Positions 44,480 to 55,394 of a DNA stretch of 64,000 nt are shown piece by piece (positions within the stretch are counted from its first letter, which is position 1; each line of letters starts with the position of its first letter). This DNA comes from Armatimonadota bacterium (GTDB lineage Bacteria > Armatimonadota > UBA5829 > DSUL01): contig JADLDK010000030.1 in assembly GCA_020846715.1 (NCBI GenBank), positions 1 through 64,000 on the forward strand, read 5' to 3'. Both the position numbers and the translations under genes were made by a program. The notes beneath the pieces were generated by a model, which made no database searches, was not told the DNA's origin, and saw only the letters and a list, made by a program, of their open reading frames with translations.

Positions 44480-47400
44480 ATGTCTGTGTTCACTTTCTTT
44501 CCTGAGTTCGCCTGTACTCCGGCTGTCCGGCGTCTGGCGCTAGCGTCTGTGTGGCTGACGCTTTTGTCTGCTGTTTTGGTCGGGGCTGACTGTATTACCG
44601 CTCCGGTTCCCGGGACTCCTTCAGTCTTTGGCGCGTCCACCAACAGCCTCAAAGTCGCCGCCTCCGCATCCGACCTGGACGATGTCTATATCGCCTTTCT
44701 GGTGACGGACGGCGCCTACACCCAGAGGTACGTTCAGGCTAACGGCGCTCTCGGCGCGTCTCCCGTCTGGAAGCTGCGCACGGACTGGAAAGCCGTCACA
44801 GTTACAGGGCTCTCGAGCGCAACATCCTACATCTTTCAGAGCATCGCCGCTCGGGATACAGGCGGCGCCTGTGCTTCGGAGCCAGGCTCTCCCGCAGAAG
44901 GCACAACGCTGATGATGTCCGGGGCATTCGCGGTGCCGCCAGGCTTCAGCGCCTCTCTGTGGATGAGCCCCGGGTCAGGCATCAACGGCGGAGATGGCGT
45001 CACGTTCGCTCCGTACACGGGTCCTGGAGGGGGCACACGGATGTTCATCACGAACGCCTACTGGGGATCTGGAAAGGTCTTTAGCGTCAAGATCAACGGA
45101 GATGGCTCAGCGGGCGTGACACAGGATTTTGCCTCCGGTTTTGAAGATCAGATAGTCAGCGCAACGTACAATCCAGCTAACGGCTACTGGTACGCGGGAG
45201 CGGGCACCAAAGTCTACTGGATGAAGGACAAAAACGGCGACGGTGATGCGCTGGACCCCGGAGAGAAGGGCGTACTGTTGAGCAACCTTGTAAGCGCTGG
45301 TAGCAAGCACGCTGTGGACAAGGTCCAGTTCAACCCGCAGAATCCGAGAGAACTGTTTTTTGGCGTGGGTTCTCATAGCGATCACGGCGAGTCTGCCGAC
45401 CCTGCCTATCAGGCGATTATCCGCCGGGCGATGCTCTCACCAACCAATCCGGAGCAGGTGACCGCCGAGTCTATCAACGACCCTTCGTACTACATTTACG
45501 CAAGCGGCTTGCGGAACTCAAGCGGTGAGGTTTTTCTGACCGATGGACGCCTCGTCGCCACAGAACATGCCCCGGACTGTGACGTTTCTGAGGAGCTGAA
45601 CGTCATCACCCAGGGTGCGTGTTATGGTTTTCCGGCGTGGTATGCAGACGGAACTGAGCCGACCGGAGGAGCGGTGTCGTGCTTCCCGCAAGGAACCTGC
45701 AACTTCACGTGTCCGTGCCCCAATGACTTTACAAAGCCTGTCGCTCTCTTCCCGCCCCACTCAGCGCCCATTGGCATCGTGCAGTACACGCTCACGCAGT
45801 TTCCACTCAAGTACAGAGGACGTCTCTTCGTAGCGGAGTTTGGCAATCTGGTGAATATGCAGGATACCTCCTCCGGGCGTCGCCTGAGCATGTTTCAACC
45901 GGACTCTGACGACGGCACAGGACACTGGCAGCGGGCCGATTTTTTCAGCGAGCCCAACACGAACGTCAATACGCGCCAGTTATCCTGGCTCGCCGATGTC
46001 CAGCAAGGACCGGACGGAGCGTTGTACGCTGTTGAGTTCTCAAACCAGGGTTTTGGCGGTAACAGCGGCTCTATCTTTCGCTTAAGCTTCTCCGACCCGA
46101 CTCCTCCCACTGCGATATCTGTTCAGGATGAAGGATCGGTTACGGGAAGCACAAGCACGTTGAATGTCACGTGGACTCCCTCGTTTGATCCGCAGTCCGG
46201 CATCCGCCAGTACTGGTACAGCGTTGGCACCGCGCCGGGGCTGGCAGATGTCAGGGGGTGGACTGGCGCTGGAAATGTGCTCAAAGCCTCAATTCAGGGA
46301 CTGTCTCTCCAGAACGGGCAGACCTACTACGTGAATGTTCGCGCCGAGAACGGTAACCTTGGGACCAGCTTCCAGGGCGTGTTCTCTCCCGTTGCGAGTA
46401 CCGACGGTATTACAGTCAGCGTCCTGCCACCTGTCTCATTGCAGATCGAAGCGCCCTCAGTGACTGCGACAGCGAGAGGCCCGGCGACGTTCCCCGTCAC
46501 CTACCTGAACGCCTCGTCTGTTTCGCTGAGTCCTTCAGACGTGACTCTGATTGCAACCGGAAGCGCATCCGGCACGATTTCCGTTGTTGGAAGCGGTCTC
46601 AGTCAGCGCGACGTCGTTGTGAGCGACATTACCGGAGATGGAACTCTGGCCATATCCATAGCCGCAGGAACTGCCTCCAATCTCAGTTCATCAGCGCCGG
46701 CCGCAGGGCCGTCCGCCGCTGTTGTGGTCGATACAACCGCCCCGATAGTGTCGCAGGCGTCTCTTGAACCGGATTGTGTCCACTCCGGCGGTCCTTTGAC
46801 TGTGCGGGCGACAGTTCAAGATAGCGGAACCGGAGTCAGTGCTTCCGGCGCTTTGTTGCTTGGTTCAAATATCGCACTCAACGCGGATTTTGAGGACGGC
46901 ACGCTGACCGGATGGGCCAACGGAAGCAACCCCGTATATACGGTTGACAACGCCTATCCGTCCCCCGGCACTGCCCGGAGCGGGCTGCACTGGGCGGGAG
47001 CCTCTTGCGCGTATTCAAGCGGAGTCAAGACGCCAGAGTTGCGCCAGACTGTCAGTGTGACCCCGGGCGTGCGTTACTATCTGTCCGCCTGGGTCAACAC
47101 ACAGGACAGTCCAAATTCGTGTTCGGCTTATCTACAATTCAAGGACGGCGCTCCCCCTTCGCAGGACGGTGAATGTCAGACAGTTCCAGGGCCACTCAGC
47201 TCCCTTACTGCCAACTCCACCGGGTGGCAGCGCTTGAGCGGAGTCGTTCAACCCTCTACGAATCAACTCACGATCTGTCTTAAACTGTCGTGGGCGTGCG
47301 ATGGCGCGGGTGGCGGTGGAAACTGGGACGCCGTAGAGATTCGTTCCGGAGCCTCAGCGTCTGAGTTGTCCAATGACATCGCGACGTGGAATGCTGTTGC

Positions 47401-48406
47401 GAACGCAGACGGATATCTTCTTGTCGCCGTGGACACTGTCGGCAATTCCTCCAGTGCCCTGTCAGTTCCGGCGCCGTCAATTGACGACGAAGCGCCAGTG
47501 ACCACGGCCTCCGCGCCCGCGACTGCGACGGGAGTGGTCAAGGTTGACTGGACGGCTTCCGATACCGGTTGCAGCGGACAAATTGCGACAGGCAGCGTCC
47601 GTTTGTTTGCTCGCAAAAGCACGGGCGTCTGGGCTGATAGTGGCCTTTCCGGACAGAGTGGCAACTCCGGGAGCTTCCTTTACATTCCATCTGAGGGAAG
47701 CGGGGACTACTACTTCGCAGTTGTCGCTTCCGATACAGCCGGCAATAGTTTGGCGGCGCCCTCAAGTGGAAGTGGCGCCGGTCAGACGGCGTGCACTGTT
47801 ACTCAGGGCACTCTCGTACAGCGCATCGGACAGCTCTGGAGTATGCCGGATGGTGTCGCGATTGCGCTTGCGGACAAGATAGTCTCCGCAAGCCTGGCGC
47901 AAGGCTTTGTGGTGCAGGAAAGCGACCGCTCCGCCGGCGTGCGTGTGTCGAGTTCTCAAGGCTCTTCCGCTGGTCAGACTGTGGCTATCGGTGGAGTGCT
48001 GGGTACCCAGGGATTGGAGCGTTACGTGGCAGCAGATACCGTGTATCTGCTCAACTCCGCATCGGCGCCGCAGCCTCTGTATCTCAGGCACAGAGATCTG
48101 GGCGGCACAACTGGTCTCGCGCCAACGCCAGGGGTCTCAGGGGCAATTTCACTGTTCAACGTCGGACTACTGGTGAAAGTCTCAGGAATTGTGACCTACG
48201 CGGAGGCGGGTTCCTTCTATCTTGACGACGGGAGCGGACTTCTGGACGGAAGTGGCCATCGCGGTGTCAGAGCCTATTCCAGCAAGCAAGTGTTGACTGG
48301 CGATTTCGTTACGGTCACAGGTATCTGCGGTCTGGAAGCTGCGCCTGCTGGCGCCAGGGCTGTTGTCCGCGCCCGCTCTGACTCGGACGTGACAGTATTG
48401 AACTGA
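44480..48406 (+). CDS. Secreted GSDH-like beta-propeller protein with FN3, CBM-like and OB-like domains
   Basis: A 1308-residue exported multidomain protein. An N-terminal hydrophobic segment (17-36) precedes an FN3-like unit. Residues about 155-535 resemble the soluble quinoprotein sugar dehydrogenase (YliI/GSDH) propeller: VTFAPYTGPGGGTRMFITN, YASGLRNSSGEVFLTDGRLVATEHAPDCDVSEELN, VALFPPHSAPIGIVQYTLTQFPLKYRGRLFVAEFGN. The catalytic residues and PQQ site are not confirmed. Then an FN3 domain (about 540-650), Ig-like units, a CBM4/9-like domain (about 795-960, ADFEDGTLTGWANGS) and a C-terminal pair of OB-like units (about 1110-1308). Possibly a surface sugar oxidase or glycan-binding protein; I see no anchoring signal. 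Confidence 0.78.
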   Translation: MSVFTFFPEFACTPAVRRLALASVWLTLLSAVLVGADCITAPVPGTPSVFGASTNSLKVAASASDLDDVYIAFLVTDGAYTQRYVQANGALGASPVWKLRTDWKAVTVTGLSSATSYIFQSIAARDTGGACASEPGSPAEGTTLMMSGAFAVPPGFSASLWMSPGSGINGGDGVTFAPYTGPGGGTRMFITNAYWGSGKVFSVKINGDGSAGVTQDFASGFEDQIVSATYNPANGYWYAGAGTKVYWMKDKNGDGDALDPGEKGVLLSNLVSAGSKHAVDKVQFNPQNPRELFFGVGSHSDHGESADPAYQAIIRRAMLSPTNPEQVTAESINDPSYYIYASGLRNSSGEVFLTDGRLVATEHAPDCDVSEELNVITQGACYGFPAWYADGTEPTGGAVSCFPQGTCNFTCPCPNDFTKPVALFPPHSAPIGIVQYTLTQFPLKYRGRLFVAEFGNLVNMQDTSSGRRLSMFQPDSDDGTGHWQRADFFSEPNTNVNTRQLSWLADVQQGPDGALYAVEFSNQGFGGNSGSIFRLSFSDPTPPTAISVQDEGSVTGSTSTLNVTWTPSFDPQSGIRQYWYSVGTAPGLADVRGWTGAGNVLKASIQGLSLQNGQTYYVNVRAENGNLGTSFQGVFSPVASTDGITVSVLPPVSLQIEAPSVTATARGPATFPVTYLNASSVSLSPSDVTLIATGSASGTISVVGSGLSQRDVVVSDITGDGTLAISIAAGTASNLSSSAPAAGPSAAVVVDTTAPIVSQASLEPDCVHSGGPLTVRATVQDSGTGVSASGALLLGSNIALNADFEDGTLTGWANGSNPVYTVDNAYPSPGTARSGLHWAGASCAYSSGVKTPELRQTVSVTPGVRYYLSAWVNTQDSPNSCSAYLQFKDGAPPSQDGECQTVPGPLSSLTANSTGWQRLSGVVQPSTNQLTICLKLSWACDGAGGGGNWDAVEIRSGASASELSNDIATWNAVANADGYLLVAVDTVGNSSSALSVPAPSIDDEAPVTTASAPATATGVVKVDWTASDTGCSGQIATGSVRLFARKSTGVWADSGLSGQSGNSGSFLYIPSEGSGDYYFAVVASDTAGNSLAAPSSGSGAGQTACTVTQGTLVQRIGQLWSMPDGVAIALADKIVSASLAQGFVVQESDRSAGVRVSSSQGSSAGQTVAIGGVLGTQGLERYVAADTVYLLNSASAPQPLYLRHRDLGGTTGLAPTPGVSGAISLFNVGLLVKVSGIVTYAEAGSFYLDDGSGLLDGSGHRGVRAYSSKQVLTGDFVTVTGICGLEAAPAGARAVVRARSDSDVTVLN

Positions 48407-53018: not shown

Positions 53019-53963
53019 TTACTGGACTTTTGTCTGGATATCTCCCGCCTCGCGCACCCTCAGAAGAGAGTAGAGGTTGTTGCCGACCTTCTCGCAACTG
53101 CTGATGCCAGTTACCGTGACCAGCTCATTTATATTCGGCAGGGTCAGTCCTGGCGCCCATACACGCACCCCATTATTCCCGTCTGCCGCCGTAATGGAGG
53201 AGCCGTCCCAGACAGTGAACGTGTTAGCCGTTTCGTCAACGGATGTCACATGGCCGCATATTTGAACGAGAAGGCCAATGTTGTTAAGGCCGTAGGAGCC
53301 GAAAACTCCTCGCTGACCCTTCCCGGTCGCGAGATCATAGAACCAGTCCCCTCCACCGAGAGCATCTGTGATCAACGTCAGCGGCTCTGGGCGGGCGCCG
53401 GATTTCAGGACAGCAACTCTGGTCGGCTGAACATACCTTTCAAGATCGGCATTGGTCTGAATTGTGCCTGCGGAGCGGATGCTGTCGCCTGGATGGACCG
53501 GTGCTGAAGAGGCAAACCTAATGCCTCCACTGCGCATCTCGTCCTGCGCATAAAAGAAGCCGTCCCAGACCGCTGTCACCACTAGCGGAAGCTCGTAGAG
53601 AATTTCGCTGTCGGCAAGCTTCTTCGCGGCCAGTAACCCACCAGCGTACGCGGAAAACTCCCGGCTGATGGCATCTACAGGCGAAGCCGATGAATCTTGC
53701 CCGACGTAGGCCGTGAACTCCCGGCTGATGGCATCTACAGGCGAAGCCGATGAATCTTGCCCGACGTAGGCCGAGAACTCCCGGCTGATGGCATCTACAG
53801 GCGATGCAGAGGAGTCTTGCCCGACGTAGGCCGAAAACTCCCGGCTGATCGCATCCACCGGAACTGGTGCGTCCGCCGAGATAGCTATGCACAGACTTGC
53901 TAGAGCAACTGTAAACAGTGCATACATCGAATATTTGAGGTTCCTAGCCAACTCACACCTCAT
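53019..53963 (-). CDS. Secreted repeat protein with four 20-residue SREFS repeats and OB-like C-terminal domain
   Basis: A 314-residue exported protein. GTG 53966 and ATG 53963 are adjacent; ATG is preferred, behind AGAGGG. After a signal segment (about 13-32, MYALFTVALASLCIAISADA) come four consecutive 20-residue units PVDAISREFSAYVGQDSSAS (the last diverges after SAYAG). Residues about 125-314 form two OB-like units (GFFYAQDEMRSGGIRF ... LERYV, and NNIGLLVQICGHVTSVDETANTF ... ELVTVTGI) that match the C-terminus of the 1308-residue protein at 44480. A DAxSREFSxY motif occurs as repeats in other bacterial surface proteins as far as I recall; its role is unknown. Confidence 0.75.
   Translation of the reverse strand: MRCELARNLKYSMYALFTVALASLCIAISADAPVPVDAISREFSAYVGQDSSASPVDAISREFSAYVGQDSSASPVDAISREFTAYVGQDSSASPVDAISREFSAYAGGLLAAKKLADSEILYELPLVVTAVWDGFFYAQDEMRSGGIRFASSAPVHPGDSIRSAGTIQTNADLERYVQPTRVAVLKSGARPEPLTLITDALGGGDWFYDLATGKGQRGVFGSYGLNNIGLLVQICGHVTSVDETANTFTVWDGSSITAADGNNGVRVWAPGLTLPNINELVTVTGISSCEKVGNNLYSLLRVREAGDIQTKVQ
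53641..53880 (-). repeat. Four tandem 60-bp repeats inside the coding region
   Basis: Four units of exactly 60 bp (53641-53700, 53701-53760, 53761-53820, 53821-53880) each encode one 20-residue block. Units 1 and 2 are nearly identical over the 48 nt from AACTCCCGGC onward, unit 3 differs at several positions in its last third, and unit 4 has diverged in its last 30 nt. The in-frame period means copy-number change by slippage would not break the gene. Confidence 0.95.
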
Positions 53964-54009
53964 CACCCTCTCAAGAGTCAGACGCCTGGTTACAGCGCCA
54001 GCTCAAACG

Positions 54010-54426
54010 CTATGGCTTTGCCGCACGGACCTGGATCGCGGTAATGCCTTCCGGCAGATTGACGTCACCTTCCCAAGTCGAAGACGAGACATCTCCTGAG
54101 GTCATCGCGAGGTCCACAAACTGTGCGTTGGCTCCACGTGATATTACCCTGGCCTTGACGATCCACTCCGCGGGTACGTTGGACGCATGCACGACGATGT
54201 GCTGCGAGCCCGCTCCGGTGAAGGCCAGATCTGTTTCGCCAATCGACATACTTGCACGTGGATCGGTGCCAACGGCCTGCCCACCAAGAGATACCACATC
54301 TATGCGGGGGCGGCTCGCGGCAGGCCAAACGTCGGCTTGTGTTAATGTAGCGGTATCTACTGAAGCCACTGGGCTGACGGTGCCGCCTGCGGCCACGGTG
54401 TTTGCGCGTAGTCGTACTCGTCCTGT
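54010..54426 (-). pseudogene. C-terminal part of the Gly-rich secreted gene, after an in-frame TGA
   Basis: This segment continues in the same frame as the gene at 54427-55245, directly after its TGA (54429-54427). Translated without a break it reads TGRVRLRANTVAAGGTVSP and then a beta-rich domain of about 120 residues (PRIDVVSLGGQAV ... STWEGDVNLPEGITAIQVRAAKP) ending at its own stop. In related Gly-rich beta-helix proteins, G-(S/A)-GG(R)-I-RLEA follows this point, so the TGA most likely replaced a GGA (Gly) by one base change. No internal start with a ribosome binding site is visible, so without readthrough this part is not made. Confidence 0.7.
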
Positions 54427-55245
54427 TCAAAGACCATCAGCGCCGACTGCAGAAATCTTCCCGGCAATATCTATTGCGTCAGCTACTATTTTTATGGCGC
54501 CACCGGCGGCGTAGCTGCCGTACGATATGATTGCATCTGCTGTAAGCTGACCCGCAACGGATACGAAACCTGATGCGGCGATCAACAGAGCGCCACCTCC
54601 GCTGCCGCCGCTGCCCACGGTGCCCACGGTGCCGCCGGCTTTGCCTGCTCCGCCACTGCCGCCTATGAGCTGACTCACTAGTGGGTCACCATAGGTCACT
54701 GCTATGACACTTGCTGGGTACCGGGACCCAGCGACGGCGTAGGAGCCGTTAGCGTAGTCGTAATAGCCCGGATTATAGGAGTTTCCGCCGCCGGGGCCAA
54801 ACCCGGGAGAGGAGCCGAGACCCGCTTGCGGACCAAAACCTCCTCGAAAACCACCTGGGCCCGGCTCAACCAGAGTGCCATTAGAGAGACCAGATTTTCC
54901 GTTTAGAGAAACCGTCCCTGCTATACTGACGGTCCCGTTTACCAGCCAGACAACCGGCGCGCGAGAAGGGTGGTTCTTGAACGTGACAGTGCAGCCCGCG
55001 GGTACGTTAACGGAGGAATATTTGAAGACGACGGCCCACTTCTCCGGGTCGTAAACACCGTTACCGGCTACTGTTGGTGCGCTGTCCCACTGACCAGTGC
55101 TTGCGAGAGACAGGTCAACCACATAACTCGTGCCGGTGGGATTGAAGGCGCCGTCGGACCCGTCTGCGCCCGGAACGACGATATCTGCGGTCGAAAAAGA
55201 GGCGGCAAGCGCCAGTACAAGCGAAGCGAGTAAAGCTCTCAACAT
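54427..55245 (-). CDS. Secreted Gly-rich protein, N-terminal part, truncated by TGA
   Basis: A 272-residue exported protein. The ATG at 55245 has GAGGAGGG about 7 nt upstream. The signal peptide is MLRALLASLVLALAASFSTA. Residues 25-110 hold a beta-rich cap (SSVNVPAGCTVTFKNHPSRAPVVWLVNGTVSIAGTVSLNGKSG), followed by a Gly-rich region (GGFRGGFGPQAG, GGSGGAGKAGG) and VSVAGQLTADAIISYGSYAAGGAIKIVADAIDIAGKISAVGADG. The layout is that of a large Gly-rich surface protein whose C-terminal part lies beyond the TGA. The truncated product would be exported but incomplete. Confidence 0.7.
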   Translation of the reverse strand: MLRALLASLVLALAASFSTADIVVPGADGSDGAFNPTGTSYVVDLSLASTGQWDSAPTVAGNGVYDPEKWAVVFKYSSVNVPAGCTVTFKNHPSRAPVVWLVNGTVSIAGTVSLNGKSGLSNGTLVEPGPGGFRGGFGPQAGLGSSPGFGPGGGNSYNPGYYDYANGSYAVAGSRYPASVIAVTYGDPLVSQLIGGSGGAGKAGGTVGTVGSGGSGGGALLIAASGFVSVAGQLTADAIISYGSYAAGGAIKIVADAIDIAGKISAVGADGL

Positions 55246-55394
55246 AATATACCCTCCTCACGGCGGCTGTTCCGGCGCCACTTTTACGGCATGGTCAACC
55301 CGGGCCGGCTGGCTAGCTGAATACAGGAGTCCGCTACGGGGGGTTCTCCTCCCGGAACGCTCCTCACGGCTGCCATAAGCCACCAATCTCACCA

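Follow-up and report, generated by a model that had tools for sequence, protein, structure and literature searches.

The question raised by this locus is whether an in-frame TGA is the proper end of a short gene, a nonsense mutation, an error of the consensus, or a codon that the cell reads as an amino acid. The window, i.e., the whole stretch of 64,000 nucleotides that was analysed, carries on its minus strand a Gly-rich open reading frame of 272 codons (54427..55245) closed by a TGA (54427..54429, context CTT TGA A), and the same frame continues for another 138 codons to a TAG (54010..54426). We believe that a recent nonsense allele in the gene of an accessory exported protein is the best reading, with a probability of about 0.7, and that we most likely deal with a loss-of-function allele rather than with a new decoding of the genetic code.

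The frame starts at the ATG at 55245, has the TGA as codon 273 of the family frame and, if continued, ends with the TAG at 54012-54010 (minus strand), which gives 410 sense codons for the whole. The sequence-only reading described “a large secreted Gly-rich gene”; it is Gly-rich and exported, while its size is modest. From the open reading frame list, the fold prediction and the matches in two related genomes (G029 and G056), the part before the stop consists of an N-terminal hydrophobic helix, which reads as signal-peptide-like, and a β-helix-like Gly-rich domain; from sequence, homology and fold, the continuation holds the last β-helix strands (276-297) and an Ig-like β-sandwich (about 311-411). 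The ribosome binding site is intact, as had been claimed: the Shine-Dalgarno sequence GAGGAGGG (55252..55259, minus strand) is well spaced, 6 nt 5' of the ATG. The claimed intact sigma-70 promoter proved weak, being one match of 10/12 at 55423-55395 in a region where two matches were found and 1.1 +/- 1.0 are expected by chance. Re-initiation past the stop was considered and rejected, the nearest in-frame start, a GTG some 30 nt further at 54396, having no well-placed Shine-Dalgarno run.

The pieces before and after the stop (272 and 138 codons) were searched apart against the genome itself and 100 relatives. The N-terminal piece gave eight strong matches, five in G056 and three in G029 (E down to 5e-63), and the C-terminal piece alone gave the same eight genes, directly downstream and in the same frame (E down to 5e-17). 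All eight are uninterrupted frames of 408-506 aa in these two other Armatimonadota genomes; two weak matches per piece in other genomes (E 0.003-0.008) were left unused. Since both pieces match the same eight genes in one frame, the frame past the stop is homologous coding sequence. The TGA thus splits a gene that continues unshifted beyond it, as the sequence-only reading proposed. The window copy also matches positions 3-404 of 404 of a family profile (E 3.6e-157) with one TGA; it is itself one of the nine rows of that profile, and the separate searches with the two pieces are independent of the profile.

Relatives differ from the window copy at exactly this codon. Of 66 full-length GTDB relatives, 37 have Gly at the position of the stop, 14 have Ser, another 14 have some other residue and one has a gap, so that a stop at the window's codon occurs in 0/66 of them, and likewise in 0/8 of the genes of G029 and G056. 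The run of the GG-RIRLEA type that had been noticed is present in the relatives, with G-R-[IV]-R beginning two residues past the stop: G in 65/66 relatives at column 275, R in 60/66 at column 276 and R in 63/66 at column 278. The window retains G-R-V-R, departs at column 280 (R versus E in 65/66 relatives), and matches the family up to its exact C-terminus. The test of whether relatives all end here, with no homology past the stop, gave the opposite outcome: these relatives are uninterrupted and the homology continues. A frameshift in place of a nonsense change was considered and rejected; the homology runs on in the 0 frame, a stop closes the +1 frame after 23 codons, and no resemblance is seen by eye in the -1 frame. 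A single nonsense change, or a consensus error, in an open gene is therefore supported by eight unbroken genes and 66 unbroken GTDB copies, of which at least five are shared between the two sets; orthologues or paralogues are intact across the stop, as is expected for a nonsense pseudogene. The 138 codons past the stop are open, in frame and homologous, and reach the family C-terminus; the lesion should therefore be young compared with the divergence of the family.

The gene belongs to a widespread family of exported proteins that has no name as yet and combines a β-helix-like domain with a C-terminal Ig-like sandwich. The homology extends over the family length, and the conserved motifs GPGGFRGG, GGSGG, GGGA and GR[IV]R are present; the window copy departs from a single uninterrupted reading frame by the one TGA inside it. 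The profile of nine sequences matched 17 of 291 Armatimonadota genomes at E <= 1e-6, with at most six candidates per genome scored, so that copies may be missed, and with four of the 17 (G114, G115, G116 and G120) matching through short Gly-rich stretches only. Leaving out these four and one Gly-rich stretch in G238, and taking pieces of one copy as one, we count 27 copies in the phylum among the scored candidates, no more than six per genome. Four of the 27 are broken, the window copy included (TGA at profile position 267). The copy G238:C3 (L163) changes frame near positions 44-48 and again between 288 and 299; G212:C1 changes frame near position 66, with a TAG; G194:C2 (L164) changes frame at about 270, its N-terminal part was not found, and a TAG was also counted there in the phylum search. 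None of these three has a nonsense codon at the position of the window's stop. Two of them have lesions near it (G194:C2 within about 5 and G238:C3 within 20-30 profile positions), which may be a coincidence or may reflect repeated loss of the C-terminal domain. The nonsense reading did not predict such nearby breaks; with so few lesions, they are indistinguishable from chance. That three of the 26 other copies in the phylum are broken, each by other lesions, is best fitted by a recent nonsense allele in a dispensable gene.

Outside this search, a GTDB scan found 62 loci in Verrucomicrobiota, Planctomycetota, Armatimonadota, Eisenbacteria, Sumerlaea and a few others. They contain the 66 distinct full-length copies used above, with internal stops in 0/66, the scan selecting conserved motifs and being biased to intact copies; the 66 do not include the shorter matches in L125, L145, L158 and L162, nor a further stretch in L147. 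At least ten of the 66 are common with the copies of the phylum search (five in G056, three in G209 and two in G239). These members are 35-44% identical to the window copy and share its domain order and its ends. Tandem arrays of two to five full-length copies were observed at L115 (three), L131, L147 (five) and L148, labelled Chthonomonas, Verrucomicrobiales, Eisenbacteria and Sumerlaeaceae. The window protein matches no Pfam or NCBIfam model; of 67 family members, one touches Big_4 and one gliding_AgmC_N. No viral relative was confirmed among 120 stretches, no relative among solved structures was found by sequence at E up to 1, and the literature searched gave no paper on the family or on recoding in Armatimonadota.

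The stop lies within a patch that is unusual in itself. Codons 238-280, the stop included (54406..54534, minus strand), are the most family-atypical stretch of the gene. Departures from conserved columns were counted over 82 rows (80 distinct sequences): codons 1-237 of the window copy depart at 3/70 columns, which is ordinary (rank 45 of 82), codons 238-272 at 6/9 (the worst of 82 rows), codons 274-280 at 1/4 (third) and codons 281-411 at 2/14 (rank 12). A count over 67 rows gave 4/18 for the C-terminal part (third worst) and 10/82 for the N-terminal part (seventh worst). Both parts have long terminal branches (ranks 14 and 9 of 82). The ratios of C-terminal to N-terminal identity, 0.53-0.73 in pairs with the window copy, fall inside the 0.50-0.92 of pairs of intact copies, and the continuation shows no obvious decay; outside the patch the gene is close to normal or slightly divergent. 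The patch was picked after the data had been seen; a separate test on it showed that its codon usage is lower than all but 1 of 285 gene windows of the same length. Several family glycines are lost there, the codons are AT-rich and unusual, and GC3 falls to 0.23 over codons 251-280; in the gene as a whole it is 0.57 before the stop and 0.57 after it, lower than the 0.63-0.71 of ten other window genes compared. An origin of the patch by exchange with another copy, or with a repeat acting as template, was rejected, as the 181-bp stretch searched has no second match in its own genome. The departures are spread over codons 238-280 and are thus not explained by one recent point change; constraint may have been relaxed before the stop arose or since.

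This patch bears on the possibility, unlikely in our view but worth keeping in mind, that the consensus is in error and the organism itself carries a sense codon. The genome is a draft of 69 contigs, 94% complete, the remainder of the frame is open, and the GTDB scan, in which near-identical records were possibly omitted, turned up the locus in no other assembly; all this agrees with an error. A random base error would nevertheless leave the anomalous 43 codons unexplained. Nor was a poor consensus indicated when 464 kb of this genome were scanned for stops that separate coding-like stretches of one frame: the 14 candidates (TAG 7, TAA 4, TGA 3) are ordinary gene junctions by eye, with a start codon 0-17 codons on, in a scan that missed the window's own site and has low power.

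One could also propose that evolution has made the 272-residue protein a working short form whose end was remodelled. The last coil ahead of the stop, being the most atypical for the family, looks as if reworked, the preceding 237 codons are normally conserved, and the two other copies that are broken close to this point would agree with it. Against this, an established truncation should have allowed decay, and the sequence past the stop is still family-like to the exact C-terminus; no other copy was seen ending at this codon. We therefore hold such a short form to be very improbable.

The suggestion of a phase-like variant finds little support. There is no simple tandem repeat at the stop and no shifted frame, and the repeats touching the site are imperfect: a direct pair of 27 nt (74%) that spans the stop and, bracketing it, an inverted pair of 17 nt (82%) with arms 643 nt apart. 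Neither a repeat tract nor good invertible repeats, as phase variation would have at the lesion, are found.

The more exciting option was that UGA is recoded. UGA is a working stop in this genome. The RF2 gene prfB is present (518 bits versus a cut-off of 370), and it can be read only with a +1 shift at CTT TGA C, the other frame having no upstream start codon; TGA terminates 7 of the 19 reference genes in the window. As an aside, prfB (L053 1500-1560) retains CTT TGA C, while the Shine-Dalgarno-like AGGGGG run upstream, described in PMC12421855, is not evident. There is no UCA anticodon in 40 tRNAs (ARAGORN, 34 loci covering all 40 tRNA places), in a genome that is 94% complete and where some tRNAs that one would expect, such as those for Ile and Tyr, were unseen, so that a tRNA may have been missed. 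The single match to tRNA-Sec over the cut-off (48.1 versus 47) is a tRNA-Ser(tga), and selA scores 20.6 bits versus a cut-off of 267.9, which one of 14 control genomes exceeds. Thus the selA and tRNA-Sec pair of selenoprotein producers was not found, and neither was a UCA tRNA or the loss of RF2 that marks UGA-recoded genomes (codes 4/25). The tRNA-Trp anticodon is CCA, and the molecule, with a 5-bp anticodon stem, A9 and G24, reads as canonical. The RF2 frameshift at UGA, the TGA terminators and the tRNA set together make genome-wide recoding very unlikely.

The broader proposal, that UGA is recoded here in a programmed or genome-wide manner (as Trp, Gly or selenocysteine) or that the ribosome shifts frame at CTT TGA as in prfB, has next to no probability in our opinion. 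CTT TGA is indeed common to the site and the prfB motif; however, CTTTGA is found 403 times in 464 kb on both strands, no Shine-Dalgarno-like run lies just upstream, and the +1 frame after CTTT is the one that soon ends, not the homologous one. The idea of recoding is hence contradicted; what may stand of the earlier suggestion is readthrough of UGA-A at a low level.

Trace readthrough of this kind is conceivable. As an explanation of the locus, it would mean that tRNA-Trp misreads UGA-A at a low rate and that a little full-length protein accompanies the truncated form; we consider this improbable. UGA followed by A is particularly prone to misreading by tRNA-Trp in E. coli, according to PMC5289835, which cites older work, and PMC7918605 reports in-frame stops of bacteria whose dN/dS is below 1; the open downstream frame also agrees. 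On the other side, no relative has the stop (0/66 and 0/8), which conserved programmed readthrough would have kept at this codon in relatives, the RNA downstream forms no stable structure (z = 1.11 and 1.23), and the tRNA-Trp(CCA) as read lacks the features that PMC13092985 ties to UGA readthrough. It is tempting to go further and to propose that UGA-A is a tolerated leaky stop yielding mostly truncated protein and a few percent of the full-length one with the Ig-like domain, that the patch is an adaptation to either end, and that the nearby breaks in two other copies are parallel losses of the C-terminal domain; this composite proposal is still more doubtful. If true, a leaky stop would be a means of lowering expression or an isoform switch in an exported protein.

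The consequences of the stop for the protein can be considered on a predicted fold. AlphaFold2, given the stop as W and the 66 relatives as the alignment, returned a model (mean pLDDT 92.0, pTM 0.91) with an N-terminal helix, a strand-rich domain and a C-terminal β-sandwich; residue 273 lies in a predicted loop ahead of the long strand 276-286. According to this model, the truncated product would be without strands 276-286 and 289-297 and without the sandwich 311-411. Foldseek found nothing in the PDB at E up to 0.001. VIA-align relates the C-terminal domain (313-411) to a common β-sandwich arrangement (Z 8.7, rmsd 2.4, 82 residues) and the N-terminal domain to an Akkermansia enzyme chain (Z 7.2, rmsd 5.0, 176 residues); the strand pattern and this one Z 7.2 match suggest that the N-terminal domain is a β-helix. 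An assignment of function from the two matches was rejected, both being too modest.

The gene looks accessory in this lineage, and loss of an accessory gene would be tolerated. It is a single copy in its own genome, and no homologue was found in three other genomes of the same family (98, 80 and 69% complete). Of these three, only G002 has the Trk pair; no homologue of the interrupted gene was seen in the 12 kb listed after the pair there, and the genes in that place read as a ferredoxin-type cluster.

The downstream neighbour (53019..53966, minus strand) is a secreted-looking gene with an open frame and lies outside the lesion. It contains in its coding sequence, near the N-terminus, a 60-bp tandem repeat (3.5 copies, 92% match, 53645-53855), and the protein has no Pfam match over the cut-off. 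Its C-terminal module of about 190 residues recurs in otherwise different proteins: in the window at 53019-53966 (minus strand) and 44480-48406 (plus strand), and at L171, L178, L182, L187 and L196-L204. The module ends 0-7 residues from the C-terminus in 12 of 19 matched proteins and not in the other seven (e.g., L201, L202, L204, L173 and L175). It has at least 8 matches in 24 of 28 genomes of the same family or class, its own included, and at least 22 in 17 of them, the scoring being capped near 22; possibly it is a sorting or anchoring domain of the C-terminus that is specific to the class. A chimeric or foreign contig is not favoured, considering that the module of the adjacent gene is so common in these genomes.

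Returning to the nonsense allele, we presume the following course of events. Ribosomes would start at the ATG behind the good Shine-Dalgarno site, RF2 would terminate at the UGA after 272 residues, and the product, devoid of the last β-helix strands and the C-terminal sandwich, is predicted to be probably unstable or inactive. We infer in this way that the gene is expressed, that its function is lost and that the lesion is recent.

This is an ordinary kind of finding. If the locus is a nonsense allele, its importance is largely confined to annotation, in which the gene should be flagged as interrupted; the family, for which no Pfam or NCBIfam model covers the window copy, deserves a name. The locus can also serve usefully as a control when stop-codon recoding is claimed for draft genomes of uncultured bacteria, as UGA stops in the genome's own RF2 gene. 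More interesting nearby are the unnamed family itself and the C-terminal module recurring across the class.

Among known cases, the nearest are bacterial genes interrupted by nonsense codons and in-frame stops seen at the population level, where, in PMC7918605, a single in-frame stop with the downstream frame kept is likewise described and such stops are reported to tend to be short-lived; that survey is centred on stops common to at least two species, whereas the window's stop is known from one assembly. With the +1 frameshift of prfB at CTT TGA C, as presented in PMC12421855, the site shares CTT TGA; it differs in that the next base is A and not C, no Shine-Dalgarno-like run precedes it, and the continuation is in frame 0 and not +1. 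With UGA reassignment and the readthrough by a tRNA-Trp with a 4-bp stem, as described in PMC13092985, it shares an in-frame UGA in a gene; here, in contrast, tRNA-Trp is canonical as read, RF2 is present and UGA is in normal terminal use. Within the uncharacterised secreted β-helix/Ig-like family of Verrucomicrobiota, Planctomycetota, Armatimonadota and others, to which the gene belongs, the window copy is distinguished by its interruption.
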